Position numbers and translations under genes: made by a program. From Acetobacter cibinongensis (GTDB lineage Bacteria; Pseudomonadota; Alphaproteobacteria; Acetobacterales; Acetobacteraceae): a stretch of 64,000 nucleotides of DNA. How positions within the stretch are numbered: position 1 is the first letter of the stretch; each line of letters starts with the position of its first letter. The stretch covers positions 1 through 64,000 of the forward strand of contig NZ_BAMV01000018.1 of the NCBI RefSeq assembly GCF_000963925.1, given 5' to 3'. Positions 120-21,815 of the stretch are shown piece after piece. The notes beneath the pieces were generated by a model that saw nothing but the letters and a program-made list of their open reading frames with translations, had not been told where the DNA came from and did not search any database.

Positions 120-1952
120 TTATTTCGTGGTGTTAGCGAGTTCCTCTCGCTTCATTTCCAGCTCCAGCCATCGTTCTTCAGCCAAAGCAAGCGCCTGCTC
201 AACCTCTTCCAAGTCTTTTGTGAACTTAGAATACGCTTTTGGGTCTTTTGCATACAAACCTGTATCTTCGAGCTTGCCGCGAAGACTTTGCGCTTTGCTC
301 TCCAGCTTTGCCATTTCTTTTGGCAAATTGTCCAAAGCAAACTGATCTTTATAGCTCAACTTTTTCGCAGGAGTTTTTGCTGCCGTGGCAGGTTGCGCCA
401 CGCTGATAACAGGAATGCCGGTTTTGATTTCTTCTGAAATCCCGCCTTTTTTCTGCACCAGCATATCACTGTAGCCGCCTGCATATTCTATCCAGGTGCC
501 GGCACTCTCTGTTGCGAGTACGGATGTAGCAACTCGATCGAGAAAATCTCGATCATGGCTCACAAGCAAGACTGTCCCATCATAAGAAGACAGCATATCC
601 TGCAACAGGTCGAGCGTCTCCAAATCGAGGTCGTTGGTTGGCTCATCCAGAACCAGAAGGTTAGATGGCCTAGCAAGTGCGCATGCAAGCATAAGCCGCC
701 CACGCTCACCGCCTGAAAGTGCACTTACAGGTGTACGAGCTTGCTCCGGACGGAAGAGAAAGTCTTTCATGTAACCGATGACATGCCGCTTCTCATCACC
801 AATCTGAACCATATCACCACCACCGCCTGTAAGAGTGTCGGCTAAGGTCTGATCCGGATTAAGCGTTTTGCGTTGCTGATCAAGTGAGACCATTGCGAGA
901 GAAGGGCCAAGAGCAATATGGCCGCTATCTGGGCAATCCTGACCTATAAGAAGGCGCAGCAACGTTGTTTTGCCTGCACCGTTAGCACCAACAATGGCAA
1001 GCCGGTCACCACGCAGTATCCTGAGATTGAGGTCTTTGACAATTGTCCTGTCACCCCAAGCTTTATTGACATGCTCCGCAACAGCAACAAGCTTACTAGA
1101 CGTACCGGCAGACTGTGCAACCAGGGTGACAGTGCCCGTAGCGCGCACAGCATCTCGGCGCGCCTGCCTTAATGCGGCTAACTCACCGACACGGCGTACA
1201 TTCCGCTTGCGGCGCGCAGTCACCCCGTAGCGCATCCAATCTTCTTCGCGGGCTATTTGCCTATCAAGCTTATGTGCATCGCGTTCTTCCTGCTCAAGAA
1301 CTTCTTCGCGCCACTCCTCAAAGCGTTCAAATCCTTGCTCCAGGCGACGCGTAATACCTCGATCAAGCCAGACAACGGCACGGGATAACGTTGAAAGCAT
1401 ACGTCTGTCATGGCTGATAATCACCATGGCGCAATTTAGGCTTAAAAGTTCTTTTTCGAGCCACTCAATGGTTGGCATATCAAGATGGTTGGTCGGCTCA
1501 TCAAGAAGCAGGACATCCGGTGCGGCAGCCAGAATACCGGCTATTGCACACCGGCGTGTCTCCCCCCCGGACAAATGAGCCGTTTTTTTCGAACCGTCCA
1601 AATCGAGCGCGTCAAGCAGGGCTTCCGCCCGCCATGTGTTTTCCGGTTCATCAATGCAGCTTTGCACGTAATCCGATGCCGTTGCGAAACCTGAAAGGTC
1701 CGGCTCTTGGCGCAAATAACGCAGCTTTGCTCCAGGTTGCACAAAAACACTACCAGAGTCTGGCTGGATAACGCCTGCCGCAATTTTCAGGAGCGTGGAT
1801 TTACCCGAGCCATTGCGGCCCACCAGGCAAACGCGCTCACCCCGCGCAACAGCAAGGTTGCTTTTGTCGAGTAACGGCCGTCCCCCTAGAGTAAGAGAGA
1901 CATCTTGAAGGTGCAAAAGGGGAGGAAGTGCCATACCGCACTTCTGTGTCAT
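120..1952 (-). CDS. uup: ABC-F family ATPase, Uup-like
   Basis: 610-residue soluble protein with two ABC ATPase domains and no membrane segment, the ABC-F layout. Domain 1 has Walker A GRNGSGKS at residues 45-52, signature LSGGE at 127-131 and Walker B LLLDEP at 148-153. A charged linker (about 205-270) follows, then domain 2 with GANGAGKT at 322-329 and LSGGE at 412-416. The last 75 residues are a charged helical hairpin like the Uup C-terminal DNA- or ribosome-binding coiled coil, which separates it from EttA. Known Uup proteins act on ribosomes and on branched DNA intermediates and reduce transposon excision. A second possible start is Met7 (MALPPLL), where homology to the ABC domain begins. 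It stands alone between tRNA-Val and phyR, both of which are also on the minus strand. Confidence 0.9.
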   Translation of the reverse strand: MTQKCGMALPPLLHLQDVSLTLGGRPLLDKSNLAVARGERVCLVGRNGSGKSTLLKIAAGVIQPDSGSVFVQPGAKLRYLRQEPDLSGFATASDYVQSCIDEPENTWRAEALLDALDLDGSKKTAHLSGGETRRCAIAGILAAAPDVLLLDEPTNHLDMPTIEWLEKELLSLNCAMVIISHDRRMLSTLSRAVVWLDRGITRRLEQGFERFEEWREEVLEQEERDAHKLDRQIAREEDWMRYGVTARRKRNVRRVGELAALRQARRDAVRATGTVTLVAQSAGTSSKLVAVAEHVNKAWGDRTIVKDLNLRILRGDRLAIVGANGAGKTTLLRLLIGQDCPDSGHIALGPSLAMVSLDQQRKTLNPDQTLADTLTGGGGDMVQIGDEKRHVIGYMKDFLFRPEQARTPVSALSGGERGRLMLACALARPSNLLVLDEPTNDLDLETLDLLQDMLSSYDGTVLLVSHDRDFLDRVATSVLATESAGTWIEYAGGYSDMLVQKKGGISEEIKTGIPVISVAQPATAAKTPAKKLSYKDQFALDNLPKEMAKLESKAQSLRGKLEDTGLYAKDPKAYSKFTKDLEEVEQALALAEERWLELEMKREELANTTK

Positions 1953-2025
1953 GATTCCAAGTTATGCAAGATATGGACGAAAAATCCGCGATTAAAAATG
2001 TTTCGGCTGTAATTGGGACCCGGGT

Positions 2026-2772
2026 TTAAGAATGTGCCAACTCAAATTTGCTGACCGCCTGATACGTCGCAACTGCTAGTGTCAAAGGTTCAAATGGCTT
2101 GGTAATCACAAAACTAGGTTCTGATGTTTCACCGGTTAACAGGCGCTCGGGGTAAGCGGTTACGTAAATGACTGGAGCATTGTGCGTTTTCGTAATCTCA
2201 GCCACCGCACGCATTCCATCGCCGCCAGCCCCCAGATTGATATCTGCCAAAATCAGACCCGGCCGTGTTTTTTGGGCAATGTGAATAGCATCTGCCTGCG
2301 TATGAGCCACTCCAGCCACCTTGTGGCCGCATTGGAGAACCAGTTCCTCTATATCCATTGCGATAATGGGTTCATCTTCAATAATCAGGACAGAGGTCTG
2401 GATGCCGGTTTTTAGGTAAGCATAAGCCTTATCTGCTTCTTCTTTGGTTTGTTGCGGTGTCAGATCTAATATTTTTGCAACCATATCCGGTGACACTTCT
2501 TCCAGAGTCAGGAGAAGGAGGATCTGTCGCTGCACCACGGTTAATTCATTTTTGGAGGCATCAACATGAACATGGTTTACGAAGTGCCGCGAAATTTCAC
2601 GGTAGAGGCGGCATAAGGCTGGAAGATCGTCCCCAGAGTGATTGGTTGTAAGGCTGCGCAAACTTTGGGCAACCAGCAGATCTCCCCGTGATTGACTCCG
2701 CGTCAAGGCACGCGCGTATCGTCTGCCATAAGGAAGAGCTTGAATTAAAGCATCGCGCTGTGACTCTGGCAT
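2026..2772 (-). CDS. phyR: PhyR-type response regulator, anti-anti-sigma factor
   Basis: 248 residues in the PhyR order: an N-terminal sigma-factor-like domain (about 1-122) and a C-terminal receiver domain (about 125-240). The receiver has the acidic pair E132-D133, the phosphoacceptor Asp177 (LADINLG) and the conserved Lys225 (ITKPFEP). In Alphaproteobacteria, phosphorylated PhyR exposes its sigma-like domain, which captures the anti-sigma factor NepR and frees EcfG. Start: AAGGAG lies 7 bases before the ATG at 2772. The gene is transcribed away from the ECF, nepR and kinase genes on the other strand, which is the usual arrangement of this locus. I saw no clear EcfG-type promoter (GGAAC and CGTT boxes at 16-17 bases) in front of it. 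Confidence 0.95.
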   Translation of the reverse strand: MPESQRDALIQALPYGRRYARALTRSQSRGDLLVAQSLRSLTTNHSGDDLPALCRLYREISRHFVNHVHVDASKNELTVVQRQILLLLTLEEVSPDMVAKILDLTPQQTKEEADKAYAYLKTGIQTSVLIIEDEPIIAMDIEELVLQCGHKVAGVAHTQADAIHIAQKTRPGLILADINLGAGGDGMRAVAEITKTHNAPVIYVTAYPERLLTGETSEPSFVITKPFEPLTLAVATYQAVSKFELAHS

Positions 2773-2863
2773 GACAAATCTCCTTAGCGTGGAGTAAGAA
2801 CGTTAAAACCCGCGGGGACATAACGATGACACGCACAACCGCCTACAGGAAGAGGTAAGTGTT

Positions 2864-3382
2864 CTGAAAAGCAATAATTTACAGGACAGTAGCGCCTCTG
2901 CATCACATTTCAGGAAAGAGCTGCTCTCCATTATTCCATCATTGCGGGCTTTTGCACGGTTTTTGGCACGTAACCCGTCCACAGCAGATGATTTGGTGCA
3001 GGAGACGATCCTACGAGCATTAGCCAAATCAGAGCAATATCAGGAAGACACAAATCTGAAAGCATGGGCGTTCTCGATATTACGCAACATGTTCCTTGAG
3101 CAGACACGGCGCCGAAAAAAAGAACAGGAAGTGCTAGAATGTTATGCATCTAACGCCTCCCTGCAGGCAGCCAGTCAACCGAGTGGGCCCGATCGACAAG
3201 CCCTACACGACCTCGATGAGATGTTGTGGAAAATTTCCCCACTTCTCCGGGAGGCGCTGGTTTTGATTGGTGCACAAGGCATGAGCTATGAGGAAGCTGC
3301 TTTAGTGTGCAATGCATCTGTAGGAACAATGAAAACGCGCGTCTCACGCGCCCGATCCGAATTAATGAAGCTTTCATCTTAG
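2864..3382 (+). CDS. ECF sigma factor (EcfG-like, first paralogue), start uncertain
   Basis: ECF sigma factor with region 2 (helices around RAFARFLARN and DDLVQET) and region 4 (GMSYEEAALVCNASVGTMKTR) ending in RVSRARSEL. Reading upstream in frame, the conserved first helix (FRKELLSIIPSLRAFARF) continues past the TTG at 2942, so starting there would cut into the fold. The frame is open back to 2807 but holds no ATG or GTG. A CTG at 2864 is preceded by a strong AGGAAGAGG ribosome site 8 bases upstream, and I use it as the likely start (172 residues). If non-standard starts are disallowed, the gene would be called from 2942 (146 residues). It belongs to the general stress locus and lies divergent from phyR. 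Its relation to the second ECF gene just downstream is paralogous. Either could be the main EcfG. Confidence 0.8.
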   Translation: MKSNNLQDSSASASHFRKELLSIIPSLRAFARFLARNPSTADDLVQETILRALAKSEQYQEDTNLKAWAFSILRNMFLEQTRRRKKEQEVLECYASNASLQAASQPSGPDRQALHDLDEMLWKISPLLREALVLIGAQGMSYEEAALVCNASVGTMKTRVSRARSELMKLSS

Positions 3383-3506
3383 CCTCTAAAGCACTGTAAT
3401 ATATAATTTTTATTCACGAAAATATTTTTCTGAAAATTCTTTGTAACCTTTTCACCCTCTCGTTCATTCCCTTTGTAAGAACGCATTAAAAGCAAAGGGT
3501 ATCCCG

Positions 3507-4082
3507 ATGACGACTTCATTCCATGACCAAGTGATCGCCATTCTGCCTAAGCTGCGTGTGCAAGCTCTGGCTCTCACACGCAACCGCGCAGCGGCAGAAG
3601 ATCTGGTGCAGGATGCTGTCTGCAATGCCCTTGCTGCACAGAACAGCTTTGCCCCTGGCACAAATTTTCCAGCATGGATGCATCGTATTCTGAGAAATCG
3701 ATTCATTTCTGATTTGCGCAAAAAGCGGGAAACAACGGATGTGGACGATATGCCCGCTTCTTTCCTTGCAACCAACGCGCCCCATGAAGACCGCATTATT
3801 CTGAAAGACCTTGATGCTGCTCTGGCCCGCCTGCCAGATGATCAGCGTGAAGCGCTCGTTTTGGGCGTGCTGGAAGGTATGAGCTATCAGGAACTGGCTG
3901 AAATTGCCGGTTGCGCCGTTGGCACGGCAAAAAGTCGAGTGTTCCGTGCACGCCGTCAGCTAGAAGTATGGATGACAGGTGAGGAACATGTTGGTAATGA
4001 ACGTCTGAAATCTCAGGCTGCGGCGCTCCGTCGTAAACTTGATCGCGATGCAGAGGAACGTCCGGCAGCGCGTAGGGTTTGA
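3507..4082 (+). CDS. ecfG: EcfG-type general stress sigma factor (second paralogue)
   Basis: 191-residue ECF sigma factor. Region 2 spans about residues 6-75 (RVQALALTRN, AEDLVQDAV, WMHRILRNRF) and region 4 about 105-160 (LPDDQREALVLGVLEGMSYQ, then the DNA-reading helix VGTAKSRVFRARRQLE). The last 30 residues are a basic and acidic tail not needed for the ECF core. Start ATG 3507 follows AAAGGG about 8 bases upstream. A partner-switching EcfG directs RNA polymerase to stress genes and is held by NepR, encoded 56 bases downstream. The position directly before nepR is the classic place for ecfG, so the symbol is given here and not to the paralogue before it. The 124-base leader (3383-3506) is AT-rich; no exact EcfG promoter was seen. 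Confidence 0.92.
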   Translation: MTTSFHDQVIAILPKLRVQALALTRNRAAAEDLVQDAVCNALAAQNSFAPGTNFPAWMHRILRNRFISDLRKKRETTDVDDMPASFLATNAPHEDRIILKDLDAALARLPDDQREALVLGVLEGMSYQELAEIAGCAVGTAKSRVFRARRQLEVWMTGEEHVGNERLKSQAAALRRKLDRDAEERPAARRV

Positions 4083-4138
4083 GGGCGCAGCCTCATTAGG
4101 CAACTTATAGGGCGAACTAGCGGGTTTAGGCATGTCAG

Positions 4139-4375
4139 ATGTTTGCTATTCGGACAGAAAACATGACTTTTCCGTTAGGCGGGCCATGGTCGTACCGCCG
4201 CATGGAAAAATCTATGGATGAAGACAAGGCCGGAGCGCCTTCAAAAACGTCTGACCAGGCGTTTGATCTCTGGCTCAAACGTGGACTTCACCAGCTTTTC
4301 GATGACGTGGCAAATGAACCCATACCAGAAGAACTGTTGAAGCTCATTGAAGAAGACCGTCGGGACGAGGCCTGA
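4139..4375 (+). CDS. nepR: NepR-like anti-sigma factor
   Basis: Short protein with the NepR signature near its C-terminus: two amphipathic helices in LWLKRGLHQLFDDV and PIPEELLKLIEED. NepR binds EcfG under calm conditions and is pulled away by phosphorylated PhyR. As given it has 78 residues from ATG 4139 (TTTAGG lies about 8 bases upstream). Later in-frame ATGs at 4202 and 4214 would give 57 or 53 residues and remove only the poorly conserved N-terminal part; GGAAAAA before 4214 makes that start possible too. The gene overlaps the start of the sensor kinase by 29 bases, so translation of the two is probably coupled. Confidence 0.88.
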   Translation: MFAIRTENMTFPLGGPWSYRRMEKSMDEDKAGAPSKTSDQAFDLWLKRGLHQLFDDVANEPIPEELLKLIEEDRRDEA

Positions 4376-6143
4376 GACATCCAAGCATGAAAGGCTCCCG
4401 CATTCCCTGCGGGGTGTCTTTAATTATGTCTTGTTTGGATTAGGCCGAACGTTCAGCACAACCAGTGCGCGAATGCGCCTGATCATAGGCTTATCTGCGG
4501 TGCCAGTGGTGTGCATTGGCTCCGCAATGGCTATTCATAACTATCATGAATTGATGGTTGGTAGCGCTCAACGCGCCTCCACAGCCATTACACGGCTAGA
4601 TTTGCAGTTTCGTCATGATACAGACCGCCTTCGCAGCGCTCTGGAAACCATTGGCAGCATGGGCTTGACGCCTGACCAAATAGGTCATGCACTTTCTCTT
4701 GCAGAGACAATGAGCGGGCAAAGATACTGCTACCTCGGCGTTTTGGACGCTGACGGTGAACAGCTTCACGCTGTATCCCCAGTGGGTGGCAAGTGCGCAT
4801 CGGTCGGCAGGCCAGATCCTCTCCCATCATTTGATGCGACTCTGTTAGAAGCCGTTCAGACCGACGATGGCACAGAGGAGCAGGGCTCTTTTTTACGCAT
4901 CACCGTACCAGCCGTCTTTTTATCCATTCCCGAGACGCATGGATATCTGATTGGTGTCTTAAAGCTGTCCCGAAAATCCTCTTTTCTATCCAGCGCCGCT
5001 GGCTGGCAGGCTTTTTCGGACGAAAGCAACCCCCTGCGGGCGTGGCTGGTTGACGAGAATAATCACCTCAAAGCTGTTTGCACTGATTGCAAATGGACGG
5101 CTCCTCCTACTCACATCGTTACGCAGCTTAGAAAGCAGCTAAATGACGGAAGCGGTACAATCGCATCATTTTCTACAGCCGAGGGTGGCTATGCGCTCGG
5201 AGCCATAGCCGGGGGGACCGACATCCTTGTTGCAACACCACGCACCCCGCATGAAAGTAGCGCTTTGAGAACCATGGTTCTGGAAATTTCAGGCCTTGTT
5301 TTTCTTCTGGTCATTGGTTTGGGTGGCGTAACTCTTGCCGCGAATGTCGTTCTGGTATGGCCACTGCGCCGGCTTACCTACTCTGTGCAAAAATGGCAGA
5401 TGGAGGGCGTGTTTGATGGTCGGATCACACGAGCTATGCCTCTGGAACTACAACGTTTAGGCCAGGCCTTCACCAGAGCAACACGAAGGCTCTCCCGCCA
5501 TGAAGCTCGGCTTAAAGAGGCGATGGCGCATCAAGAACTGCTCATGCGCGAGATTCACCATCGTGTAAAAAACAATCTGCAAATCGTTGCGTCACTTCTA
5601 AATTTGCAGGCAGGTCGCATTTCCAACCCAGAATTTCGGGCAGAATTTGCCCTAGCCCGGGATAGAGTGAGGGCTCTCGCCACCCTGCATCGTAGTCTGT
5701 ACGCCGAGGACAGGCTGGACAGCCTTAATATGTCCAGCTTTTTGAAAGAATTATGCGGGCAGACCCTGCATATTGCCGGGGAATATGAGACTGGCAGAAT
5801 TGACATGGAAATAAGCTGTGACGACTTTTCCATGAACCCGGACCAAGCCGTGCCACTGGCCTTGATTGTTACCGAATTGGTAACAAACGCCATAAAATAT
5901 GCGTTTCCAGACGGCCGTTCTGGCATAATATCTGTTTCATTGACCCATGCGGACAAGATGGTGACCCTGAATATAGGGGATAACGGGATTGGATGCACAC
6001 CGGACCAATGCGACATAAGTGGCCAACAGGGGATTGGCCTTAAACTTATTAAAGGCTTTGCACGTCAGCTTAACGCAACATTTGTTCAAAACTGCCAGAA
6101 TGGGACTCATTACAGTTTTGTTTTTCCATTAGAGCAGAAATAG
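4347..6143 (+). CDS. HisKA_2 sensor histidine kinase of the general stress response (PhyK-like)
   Basis: 598 residues if read from TTG 4347; ATG 4473 would give 556. Transmembrane helices lie at about 44-64 and 310-336 and enclose a roughly 245-residue periplasmic sensor domain. A HAMP-like stretch follows (340-385). The HisKA_2 dimerisation and phosphotransfer motif IHHRVKNNLQ places the acceptor at His404. The ATPase domain has the N box around Asn514 (TELVTNAIKY), the G1 box DNGIG (545-549) and GIGLKLIKG (562-570). Position right after nepR and the kinase type, typical of PhyR partners, suggest that it phosphorylates PhyR. The signal it senses is unknown. The periplasmic part has cysteines at 128, 150, 245 and 248, including CTDC at 245-248. 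Confidence 0.88.
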   Translation: MKKTVGTRPETSKHERLPHSLRGVFNYVLFGLGRTFSTTSARMRLIIGLSAVPVVCIGSAMAIHNYHELMVGSAQRASTAITRLDLQFRHDTDRLRSALETIGSMGLTPDQIGHALSLAETMSGQRYCYLGVLDADGEQLHAVSPVGGKCASVGRPDPLPSFDATLLEAVQTDDGTEEQGSFLRITVPAVFLSIPETHGYLIGVLKLSRKSSFLSSAAGWQAFSDESNPLRAWLVDENNHLKAVCTDCKWTAPPTHIVTQLRKQLNDGSGTIASFSTAEGGYALGAIAGGTDILVATPRTPHESSALRTMVLEISGLVFLLVIGLGGVTLAANVVLVWPLRRLTYSVQKWQMEGVFDGRITRAMPLELQRLGQAFTRATRRLSRHEARLKEAMAHQELLMREIHHRVKNNLQIVASLLNLQAGRISNPEFRAEFALARDRVRALATLHRSLYAEDRLDSLNMSSFLKELCGQTLHIAGEYETGRIDMEISCDDFSMNPDQAVPLALIVTELVTNAIKYAFPDGRSGIISVSLTHADKMVTLNIGDNGIGCTPDQCDISGQQGIGLKLIKGFARQLNATFVQNCQNGTHYSFVFPLEQK

Positions 6144-19633: not shown

Positions 19634-19644
19634 CTCCATTTTTT
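19618..19644 (+). terminator. Rho-independent terminator at thiL stop
   Basis: ATGGAGC (19618-19624) pairs perfectly with GCTCCAT (19633-19639) around an 8-base loop, followed by six T (19639-19644). It overlaps the thiL stop codon and abuts the end of the convergent minus-strand gene. Confidence 0.75.
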
Positions 19645-20803
19645 AATGACCAGAGGTTTCGAGTGTTTTTTCGTACATTCTGTGAGTTTTGTAGGGCTCA
19701 GGCACAATGCGCTCTATAAGATTTCGGATGCCGGTATTGGTCTCCAATACCCATCCCAACTCAATTGTTCGATAGGGAAGATGCCGCCCACGCTGCATCA
19801 GTTCGTCAATGAGCAACGCGGGAATAATGGCGCTTAAAGCCGTTCCTGCGAGTTTCTTTTTGACGCCCAACAAGATTACCCGCGCTGAACGAAAATCGTG
19901 GCGGAGTATGCGTGTGGCAAGCTTGACCCAACCCAAGGGAGAAGGCGCTCCGTTAAGATCTCCACTGACATCGTAAACATTTGGAACAACCAGAGCAATT
20001 GCGACTGGCTCTTTATCAAATTCAACCAAAACATATTGTTCAGGCTTCAAAATAGGCTTCATGGTTTTTAAAAGAGACTGAACTTCATGACTGGTCAGCG
20101 GCACATTTCCCCATGTACCAGCCCACGCGTCATTATAAATATCTTTCAGAATTTCAGCGTCTTCCGGAATATGGTTGGTCCTTAGCCCCCGTACCGTAAC
20201 AGAACCAAGCCGTTGCCGAAGGTTGGCTGGCACCTGATTTGCCTGCTCAGCCTCCTTACTCACTTCCATTTTGTAGGAAAACAGATCCACGGCCTTCTCG
20301 AAGCCAGCGGCCTCAATGGCCGGACCAAGCATCTTCGGGTGCCATCCCATGCCGACCATGGGTGCTTCGTTCTGCCCCGCGATCATGGTGCCAGATTCGC
20401 CATTACTATTCAGGGTCCAAGGCCCCCGAATACGCTCTATGTCGAACTGCCTTAACCAATTTTCAGCAGCATCAAGAAGCGGCTTCACGCACGCTGTATC
20501 CAGCGCATCCAACGCACCAAAAAAACCTGTTCTTGGCTCGGTCGTCTTTTCTAAGGCTAGAAAATCTATTTGTGCAGATATTCTTCCGATGGGCTTGTTA
20601 CCGCGCCATGCAAGGAAATAGCAGGCTTTACCATGCGCAAAAAAAGGAGACTGCTTGGGATTAAGCATTCCCTTTTGCTCCATGTCCAATGGAGGCACAT
20701 AATCAGGCAAACCACTATACAAGAGTCGAGGGAGGCGGATAAAAAGGGCAAGCTGACGGGCACCCACAACTGGGGATACGACAATCTGGTCAGGCTTGGT
20801 CAT
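19643..20803 (-). CDS. GNAT-like acyltransferase, possible bacterial ceramide synthase homologue
   Basis: 386 residues from ATG 20803, which has GGAG 5 bases upstream. A longer reading from 20836 adds 11 residues without support. There is no signal peptide or strong membrane helix. The C-terminal half looks like a GNAT fold (YVLVEFDKEPVAIALVVPN, then IELGWVLETNTGIRNLIERI near the end). The N-terminal half has a conserved-looking block RGPWTLNSNGESGTMIAG. It resembles the long GNAT-related proteins of the E. coli YghO type, among which the Caulobacter bacterial ceramide synthase bCerS is grouped in my recollection. That likeness comes from memory, not from a search. A divergent short-chain dehydrogenase starts 72 bases away. 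Acetic acid bacteria make sphingolipids, so an N-acyltransferase role is a reasonable hypothesis, not a conclusion. Confidence 0.6.
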   Translation of the reverse strand: MTKPDQIVVSPVVGARQLALFIRLPRLLYSGLPDYVPPLDMEQKGMLNPKQSPFFAHGKACYFLAWRGNKPIGRISAQIDFLALEKTTEPRTGFFGALDALDTACVKPLLDAAENWLRQFDIERIRGPWTLNSNGESGTMIAGQNEAPMVGMGWHPKMLGPAIEAAGFEKAVDLFSYKMEVSKEAEQANQVPANLRQRLGSVTVRGLRTNHIPEDAEILKDIYNDAWAGTWGNVPLTSHEVQSLLKTMKPILKPEQYVLVEFDKEPVAIALVVPNVYDVSGDLNGAPSPLGWVKLATRILRHDFRSARVILLGVKKKLAGTALSAIIPALLIDELMQRGRHLPYRTIELGWVLETNTGIRNLIERIVPEPYKTHRMYEKTLETSGH

Positions 20804-20875
20804 TTGCGCTCCGTCAACTACAACTCTAAACCGCAAGGTGATGCATCATTCCTGTCGAATGGGGAAGGAAAAAGT

Positions 20876-21667
20876 GTGAGGGAAATACCTACAAACAACG
20901 CGGCCACGCGTTCTATCCTGATCACAGGTGCCACAGGTGGAATTGGGGCAGAGCTAGCGAAACGATATGCAAGACCAGGCCGCACTCTTGTTCTCTGGGG
21001 GCGCAACGCGGAACGGCTGACGCAGGTGGCAACTCTCTGCTGCGCGCGCGGGGCTGCTGTCATCACGCGCCAGATAGACTTGACGGATGGGCAAGTAGCA
21101 CTTGATGCGCTTCTTGAAGACGACAAACGCGCTTCGCTGGATTTGTTGATTCTTGGAGCTGGTTTATCCGATATCAAGCCAGCCAATGCCACTACGGAAG
21201 ATCCCAAAAAAGTACTTCAACTAGCTCTCGTAAACTATACCCTCCCAGTAACCCTCGCCACTGCTGCAGCACAGCGCATGATTTCAAGAGGGCAGGGGAA
21301 GATTGTGTTTATCGGGTCTGTTGCTGGCTTTTACGAGCTTCCCTTTGCGGCCTCTTATAGCAGCTCAAAATCCGGACTGGCTTGCTTTGCCGAGGCCGCA
21401 CGACTGGACTGGGGCCGACACAATATCAAGGTCACCCTTATCGTCCCTGGGTTCGTTGATACGCCAATGAGCCAACGCCTTAAAGGAGCACGCCCCTTCC
21501 TTGTGTCAGCAGGCAGCGCAGCACGGCAAATTATGCAGGCTGTAGCCATTGGCCAAGCTGAATATGTTTTCCCGTGGCAATTCAGGGTTTTAAGAATTGT
21601 AGAGAGGCTAGTGCCCCAATTTCTGCGTAAGAAAATCCTGCTATCTTTGAAAGCAGACCAAGATTAA
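20876..21667 (+). CDS. Short-chain dehydrogenase/reductase, possible ketosphinganine or ketoceramide reductase
   Basis: 263 residues from GTG 20876, chosen because GGGGAAGGA lies 6 bases upstream and the Rossmann fold begins 12 codons later. It is a classical SDR: NAD(P) motif TGATGGIG (17-24), Asn120, Ser148, and catalytic Tyr161-xxx-Lys165 (YSSSK). The C-terminus (WQFRVLRIVERLVPQFLRKKIL) is hydrophobic and basic, as in SDRs that act on lipid substrates at a membrane. It is divergent from the GNAT-like gene with a shared 72-base promoter region. In Caulobacter, ceramide synthesis needs an acyltransferase and a reductase in addition to serine palmitoyltransferase; no spt gene is present in this window. 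SDR family membership is sure; the substrate is inferred. Confidence 0.85.
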   Translation: MREIPTNNAATRSILITGATGGIGAELAKRYARPGRTLVLWGRNAERLTQVATLCCARGAAVITRQIDLTDGQVALDALLEDDKRASLDLLILGAGLSDIKPANATTEDPKKVLQLALVNYTLPVTLATAAAQRMISRGQGKIVFIGSVAGFYELPFAASYSSSKSGLACFAEAARLDWGRHNIKVTLIVPGFVDTPMSQRLKGARPFLVSAGSAARQIMQAVAIGQAEYVFPWQFRVLRIVERLVPQFLRKKILLSLKADQD

Positions 21668-21741: not shown

Positions 21742-21815
21742 TGGAGGTCCGGGCGGGAATCGAACCCACGTACGCGGATTTGCAGTCCGCTACATCACCA
21801 TTCTGCCACCGGACC
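21742..21815 (-). tRNA. tRNA-Cys (anticodon GCA)
   Basis: 74 bases on the minus strand with acceptor stem GGTCCGG/CCGGACC, discriminator T and encoded CCA (21742-21744). The anticodon stem GCGGA/TCCGC closes the loop CTGCAAA, giving anticodon GCA. The T-loop GTTCGATTC is intact. All arms pair, so the gene should be functional. Confidence 0.97.

Follow-up and report, generated by a model that had tools for sequence, protein, structure and literature searches.

In Caulobacter, the ketone reductase of ceramide synthesis, CerR, is an extended short-chain dehydrogenase (SDR) that is homologous to NDUFA9 and resides in the periplasm (PMC11087976). The N-acyltransferase of dihydroceramide synthesis, aca, is represented by yghO (ECD_02850), CC_1154, and GOX2417, and in Gluconobacter oxydans the dehydrogenase/epimerase homologue GOX1849 has been listed as the CerR reductase under the name “epi” (PMC9386255). 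A different type of reductase is found in Bacteroides, where the classical SDR BT_0972 was shown in vitro to be a ketosphinganine reductase and has the TGxxxGxG, Ser, and Tyr-x-x-x-Lys motifs in common with eukaryotic KDSR (PMC9278070). In the sga cluster of Pseudomonas fluorescens, the oxoamine synthase PfSgaB was shown to be a serine palmitoyltransferase (SPT), and PfSgaC is presumed to be a KDSR-like SDR (PMC12134224).

The window analyzed here, a stretch of 64,000 nucleotides from Acetobacter cibinongensis, is part of contig C103 of a 3.1-Mb genome. Both genes of the acyltransferase-SDR pair that the original prediction had singled out were recovered from the sequence at the expected coordinates (Table 1), in divergent orientation and with exactly 72 bases between them. 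The promoter scan found no sigma-70-like promoter within this gap and no promoter or terminator matches near it. The two proteins very probably perform the last two ceramide-making steps, and the best explanation of the locus, which is considered likely, is that the pair completes dihydroceramide synthesis, with a classical SDR of the KDSR-like type in place of a displaced NDUFA9-like CerR.

Table 1. Coordinates of the gene pair and of related features
Feature	Location	Position	Strand	Basis or remark
N-acyltransferase, bCerS/aca/YghO family, 386 aa, tandem GNAT; ATG start at 20803, GGAG upstream, stop at 19643	Window	19643..20803	-	YghO similarity, AlphaFold model
Gap separating both start codons, 72 bases	Window	20804..20875		Sequence; promoter scan
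Ribosome-binding site of the SDR gene, GGGGAAGGA	Window	20861..20869	+	Sequence
Classical SDR, 263 aa, predicted 3-ketosphinganine/ketoceramide reductase; GTG start at 20876 preceded by GGGGAAGGA, stop ends at 21667	Window	20876..21667	+	PF00106, motifs, neighborhood, CerR exclusion
tRNA-Cys (GCA)	Window	21742-21815	-	Directly downstream of the SDR gene; sole tRNA in the window
Homologues of Caulobacter ceramide kinase (CpgB), CC_1161-like nucleotidyltransferase, phosphoesterase-like protein, and extra LptF/LptG pair	L033 (G000:C105:170000-180216)	771-6068		Beside spt
NDUFA9-like gene	A. cibinongensis C115	42799		Best CerR match in the genome
HpnA	A. cibinongensis C114	136482		Above hopanoid equivalog cutoff
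Alternative alpha-oxoamine synthase clade	L098; L099; L100; L101	6938-8167; 6138-7346; 6818-8044; 3-1166		Downstream of SDR
Unpaired acyltransferase copy	G223:C1	2261222-2262355		59% identical to the window protein
Unpaired acyltransferase copy	G147:C25	10078-11226		59% identical to the window protein

The acyltransferase aligns with E. coli YghO over its full length (127 identities in 377 positions, 34%; 213 bits; E value of 6e-70) and is 34 to 39% identical to 39 named homologues, including that of Caulobacter vibrioides. The Pfam search gave no match above cutoff for the window protein, and 30 of 40 aligned family members match Acetyltransf_1 (PF00583). The AlphaFold model (mean pLDDT of 82.6, pTM of 0.84) superimposes on the tandem GNAT protein 7q3a (Z score of 22.8) and the glucosamine N-acetyltransferase 5kf2 (Z score of 22.5), with N-myristoyltransferases also matching, at a lower score than the tandem GNATs. 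By its full-length similarity, the protein is a member of the YghO/CC_1154 (bCerS) family, as had been proposed for this long GNAT-like protein, and its model has a tandem GNAT architecture, although the shared fold alone does not give the function. Full-length similarity, fold, and occurrence with spt are common to the window protein and to bCerS, CC_1154, and YghO. It differs from them in forming a separate acetic acid bacterial branch, whose genes lie away from spt and are paired with a classical SDR gene. The yghO gene of E. coli BL21 adjoins aasR-epi-acpR-spt. An aca homologue is present in every one of the 75 spt genomes within a set of 200 Acetobacteraceae genomes, and the window protein is predicted to be a ceramide (or ketoceramide) synthase. 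No homologues of the acyltransferase were found in viral contigs. Unpaired copies occur in two genomes, one of which (G223) holds an SDR-paired copy as well.

The second protein of the pair matches PF00106 with an E value of 4.6e-41 and is a classical SDR that scores below the cutoffs of the NCBIfam equivalogs listed. The TGxxxGxG, Ser, Tyr-x-x-x-Lys, and LWGR motifs are kept across 35 aligned relatives, and the SDRs of such pairs form a single clade with a support of 100/100. Membership in the CerR family was considered and rejected, as the best match of CerR is PF01370 and the window SDR shows no specific similarity of the CC_1164 type. The two proteins have in common the predicted reaction, 3-keto reduction in bacterial ceramide synthesis, whereas CerR (CC_1164, “epi”) is extended and NDUFA9-like and the window SDR is classical. 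The predicted ketone reductase thus seems to fill the place of CerR without being related to it. By motifs and published descriptions it can be likened to BT_0972, Tsc10, KDSR, and the presumed reductase PfSgaC, which are classical SDRs of sphingoid base pathways; unlike the BT_0972 and PfSgaC systems, it accompanies an spt of the Rhodobacterial type and bCerS, not the Bacteroides gene set or a polyketide synthase. The Rossmann fold begins approximately 12 residues from the N terminus, which leaves no space for a signal peptide, so that the protein is expected to be cytoplasmic; this evidence is weak, since Caulobacter CerR also lacks an obvious signal and is nevertheless periplasmic.

The remainder of the pathway lies elsewhere in the same genome, in keeping with the earlier suggestion that it might be split over the chromosome. 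Three oxoamine synthases are encoded: ALAS, a BioF beside bioA, and, on contig C105, an Spt that scores 622 bits against a cutoff of 500 for NCBIfam NF047599 (serine palmitoyltransferase equivalog, Rhodobacterial) and has SPT 2x8u as its best solved-structure match. On C105, acpR and aasR precede spt, which is followed by homologues of a nucleotidyltransferase, ceramide kinase, phosphoesterase-like protein, LptF, and LptG. All genes required for the proposed route are present in the genome. The Caulobacter homologues of the genes that follow spt make and carry phosphosphingolipids (PMC10331486, PMC11324152), and A. cibinongensis may produce phosphorylated (anionic) sphingolipids and export them. 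Compared with the order in Caulobacter vibrioides OR37, aasR-cerR-acpR-spt-ntase-kinase-pde-lptF-lptG-bcerS (L168), the C105 cluster lacks exactly cerR and bcerS. The same two genes are absent from all six further clusters of the SDR type (G187, G078, G041, G067, G060, and G111), in which the other genes of the Caulobacter order are present, save a few not found near cluster ends.

The distribution of the two reductases was followed in the same 200 Acetobacteraceae genomes, searched with the acyltransferase, Spt, the SDR (threshold of 1e-45), and a CerR query derived from the family. The acyltransferase gave 95 hits, and matches were obtained in 75 genomes for Spt, 57 for the SDR, and 22 for CerR. 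Scores for CerR are split in two: they reach at least 212 bits in 22 genomes, do not exceed 100 bits in the remainder, and are never intermediate; the CerR class is set by this bit score gap, the CerR/NDUFA9 tree being unresolved owing to long branches, and the matches of 100 bits or less are read as NDUFA9-like or HpnA-like paralogues. The SDR and a true CerR do not occur together in any of the 200 genomes. Among the 75 spt genomes, 52 carry the SDR, 21 carry CerR, and 2 carry neither (Fisher's P value of 1e-16, calculated ignoring phylogeny). More telling than this P value is that each of two genera includes genomes of both kinds, between which entire modules are exchanged. In genus g67, G193 has spt, CerR, and the other acyltransferase branch, whereas G091 and G154 have the SDR, the acyltransferase branch of the window, and no canonical spt; genus g64 is split likewise, with G152 and G191 on one side and G225 on the other. 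The scan of the wider collection was queried with a four-sequence alignment of the other acyltransferase branch, so the loci named from it are mostly of the CerR type.

One of the two spt genomes with neither reductase, G150, has a frameshifted SDR gene beside the acyltransferase gene. A joint gene loss was rejected for this genome, as frameshifts affect SDR, spt, kinase, and lptF alike, a pattern suggestive of sequencing errors in this single-contig assembly. The genome of locus L110 (G059:C106) holds spt, acpR, aasR, and the acyltransferase, with neither CerR nor an SDR of the pair type.

The NDUFA9-like CerR is the reductase of Caulobacter, E. coli B, and other Acetobacteraceae, and A. cibinongensis, in whose entire genome no match of the CerR class was found, has the classical SDR instead. 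It could be argued that only the acyltransferase works on ceramide, and that the SDR serves a different purpose, such as the reduction of a 3-oxoacyl or hydroxy fatty acid from which the amide-linked chain is made, while an NDUFA9-like protein or an HpnA-like epimerase reduces the ketone. Such a division would agree with the published assignment of GOX1849, and A. cibinongensis does carry both an NDUFA9-like gene (86 bits to CerR) and HpnA. However, matches of 100 bits or less, the range of this NDUFA9-like protein, are found in most Acetobacteraceae irrespective of spt, and the HpnA protein scores above the hopanoid equivalog cutoff. Since G193 carries an NDUFA9-like protein (51% identical) alongside a true CerR, the NDUFA9-like gene is a separate paralogue, and GOX1849 is probably a paralogue of this kind rather than CerR. 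Moreover, it is the SDR and not the NDUFA9-like gene that tracks the sphingolipid genes and that adjoins an oxoamine synthase in four genomes. Another task for the SDR is accordingly judged unlikely, and both gene neighborhood and mutual exclusion with CerR support its proposed role in ketone reduction.

The SDR gene is the divergent neighbor of the acyltransferase gene in 56 of the 57 Acetobacteraceae genomes that bear it, with the genes on separate contigs in the one exception, G147. In acetic acid bacteria, the pair is embedded in a conserved block, nrdR-nusB-thiL-pair-tolC-valS, and part of this adjacency is therefore inherited synteny. The pair is also kept in G041, G049, G091, G134, and G225, where none of the block flanks occurs in the stretches read. 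Four of these genomes (G049, G091, G134, and G225) have no canonical spt and carry an alpha-oxoamine synthase (AOS) directly downstream of the SDR gene. It is about 33% identical to the Spt of A. cibinongensis, passes no NCBIfam equivalog cutoff (SPT or BioF), and has a weak position in the tree; it may represent an unrecognized type of serine palmitoyltransferase. Homologues of the nucleotidyltransferase, kinase, pde, lptF, and lptG genes follow it in G091. In G154, which has the pair and no spt, the contig ends before the position expected for the oxoamine synthase.

That this alternative partner passes no SPT cutoff, and that its relatives adjoin polyketide-synthase-like genes in other families, would fit a pair that makes a non-ceramide N-acyl amino-ketone or amino-alcohol lipid, with the oxoamine synthase taking a different amino acid in place of serine, as for capnine-type lipids. 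Against this stand the coexistence of the pair with Spt in 52 genomes, including that of A. cibinongensis, whose Spt is above the SPT equivalog cutoff, and the ceramide-phosphate gene homologues that G091 keeps beside the pair, so that a product of this kind is highly improbable.

Outside the Acetobacteraceae, an oxoamine synthase and an SDR occur together in G376 and G452, and together with a bCerS-like acyltransferase in G354. The very long open reading frames beside these three clusters are read as putative polyketide synthases, and a capsule-export-like open reading frame follows in G354 and G376. This arrangement resembles the P. fluorescens sga cluster. In the tree, the SDRs of the three genomes do not group as sisters with the pair SDRs, indicating parallel use and not descent. 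These clusters of other Alphaproteobacteria (L223, L224, and L225), each combining a polyketide-synthase-like open reading frame, an oxoamine synthase, and an SDR, are possibly sga/rkp-like lipid clusters.

With the pair completing dihydroceramide synthesis, AasR would load a fatty acid onto AcpR, and Spt would condense the fatty acyl chain with serine to 3-ketosphinganine. The window SDR, presumably in the cytoplasm, would then use NAD(P)H to reduce the 3-keto group, and the GNAT protein would attach the second, amide-linked acyl chain to the amine, the sequence of these two steps being putative. The new element is an apparent non-orthologous replacement of CerR that is conserved across acetic acid bacteria; no report of such a displacement was found in the literature searched, which did not include Stankeviciute et al. 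2022. A wider scenario, for and against which the balance is about even, is that acetic acid bacteria lost the periplasmic CerR in favor of a cytoplasmic KDSR-type SDR and that some Acetobacteraceae also exchanged Spt, AcpR, and AasR for the alternative oxoamine synthase, which would there be part of an AOS-SDR-acyltransferase module.

Surveys of sphingolipid producers take Spt, bCerS, and CerR as markers (e.g., PMC11334938). An unrelated reductase in acetic acid bacteria, if confirmed, escapes surveys that rely on CerR, and the “epi” assignment published for Gluconobacter may then be mistaken. The reductase swap is also relevant to the dispute over the timing of ketone reduction relative to acylation in bacteria and over its cellular compartment (PMC11087976, PMC9278070), for which acetic acid bacteria offer a natural comparison, having the same Spt and bCerS families and a different reductase. 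If a cytoplasmic SDR has replaced CerR, reduction could precede acylation, as in eukaryotes, and bacteria that share the same Spt would differ in the sequence and location of their ceramide steps.
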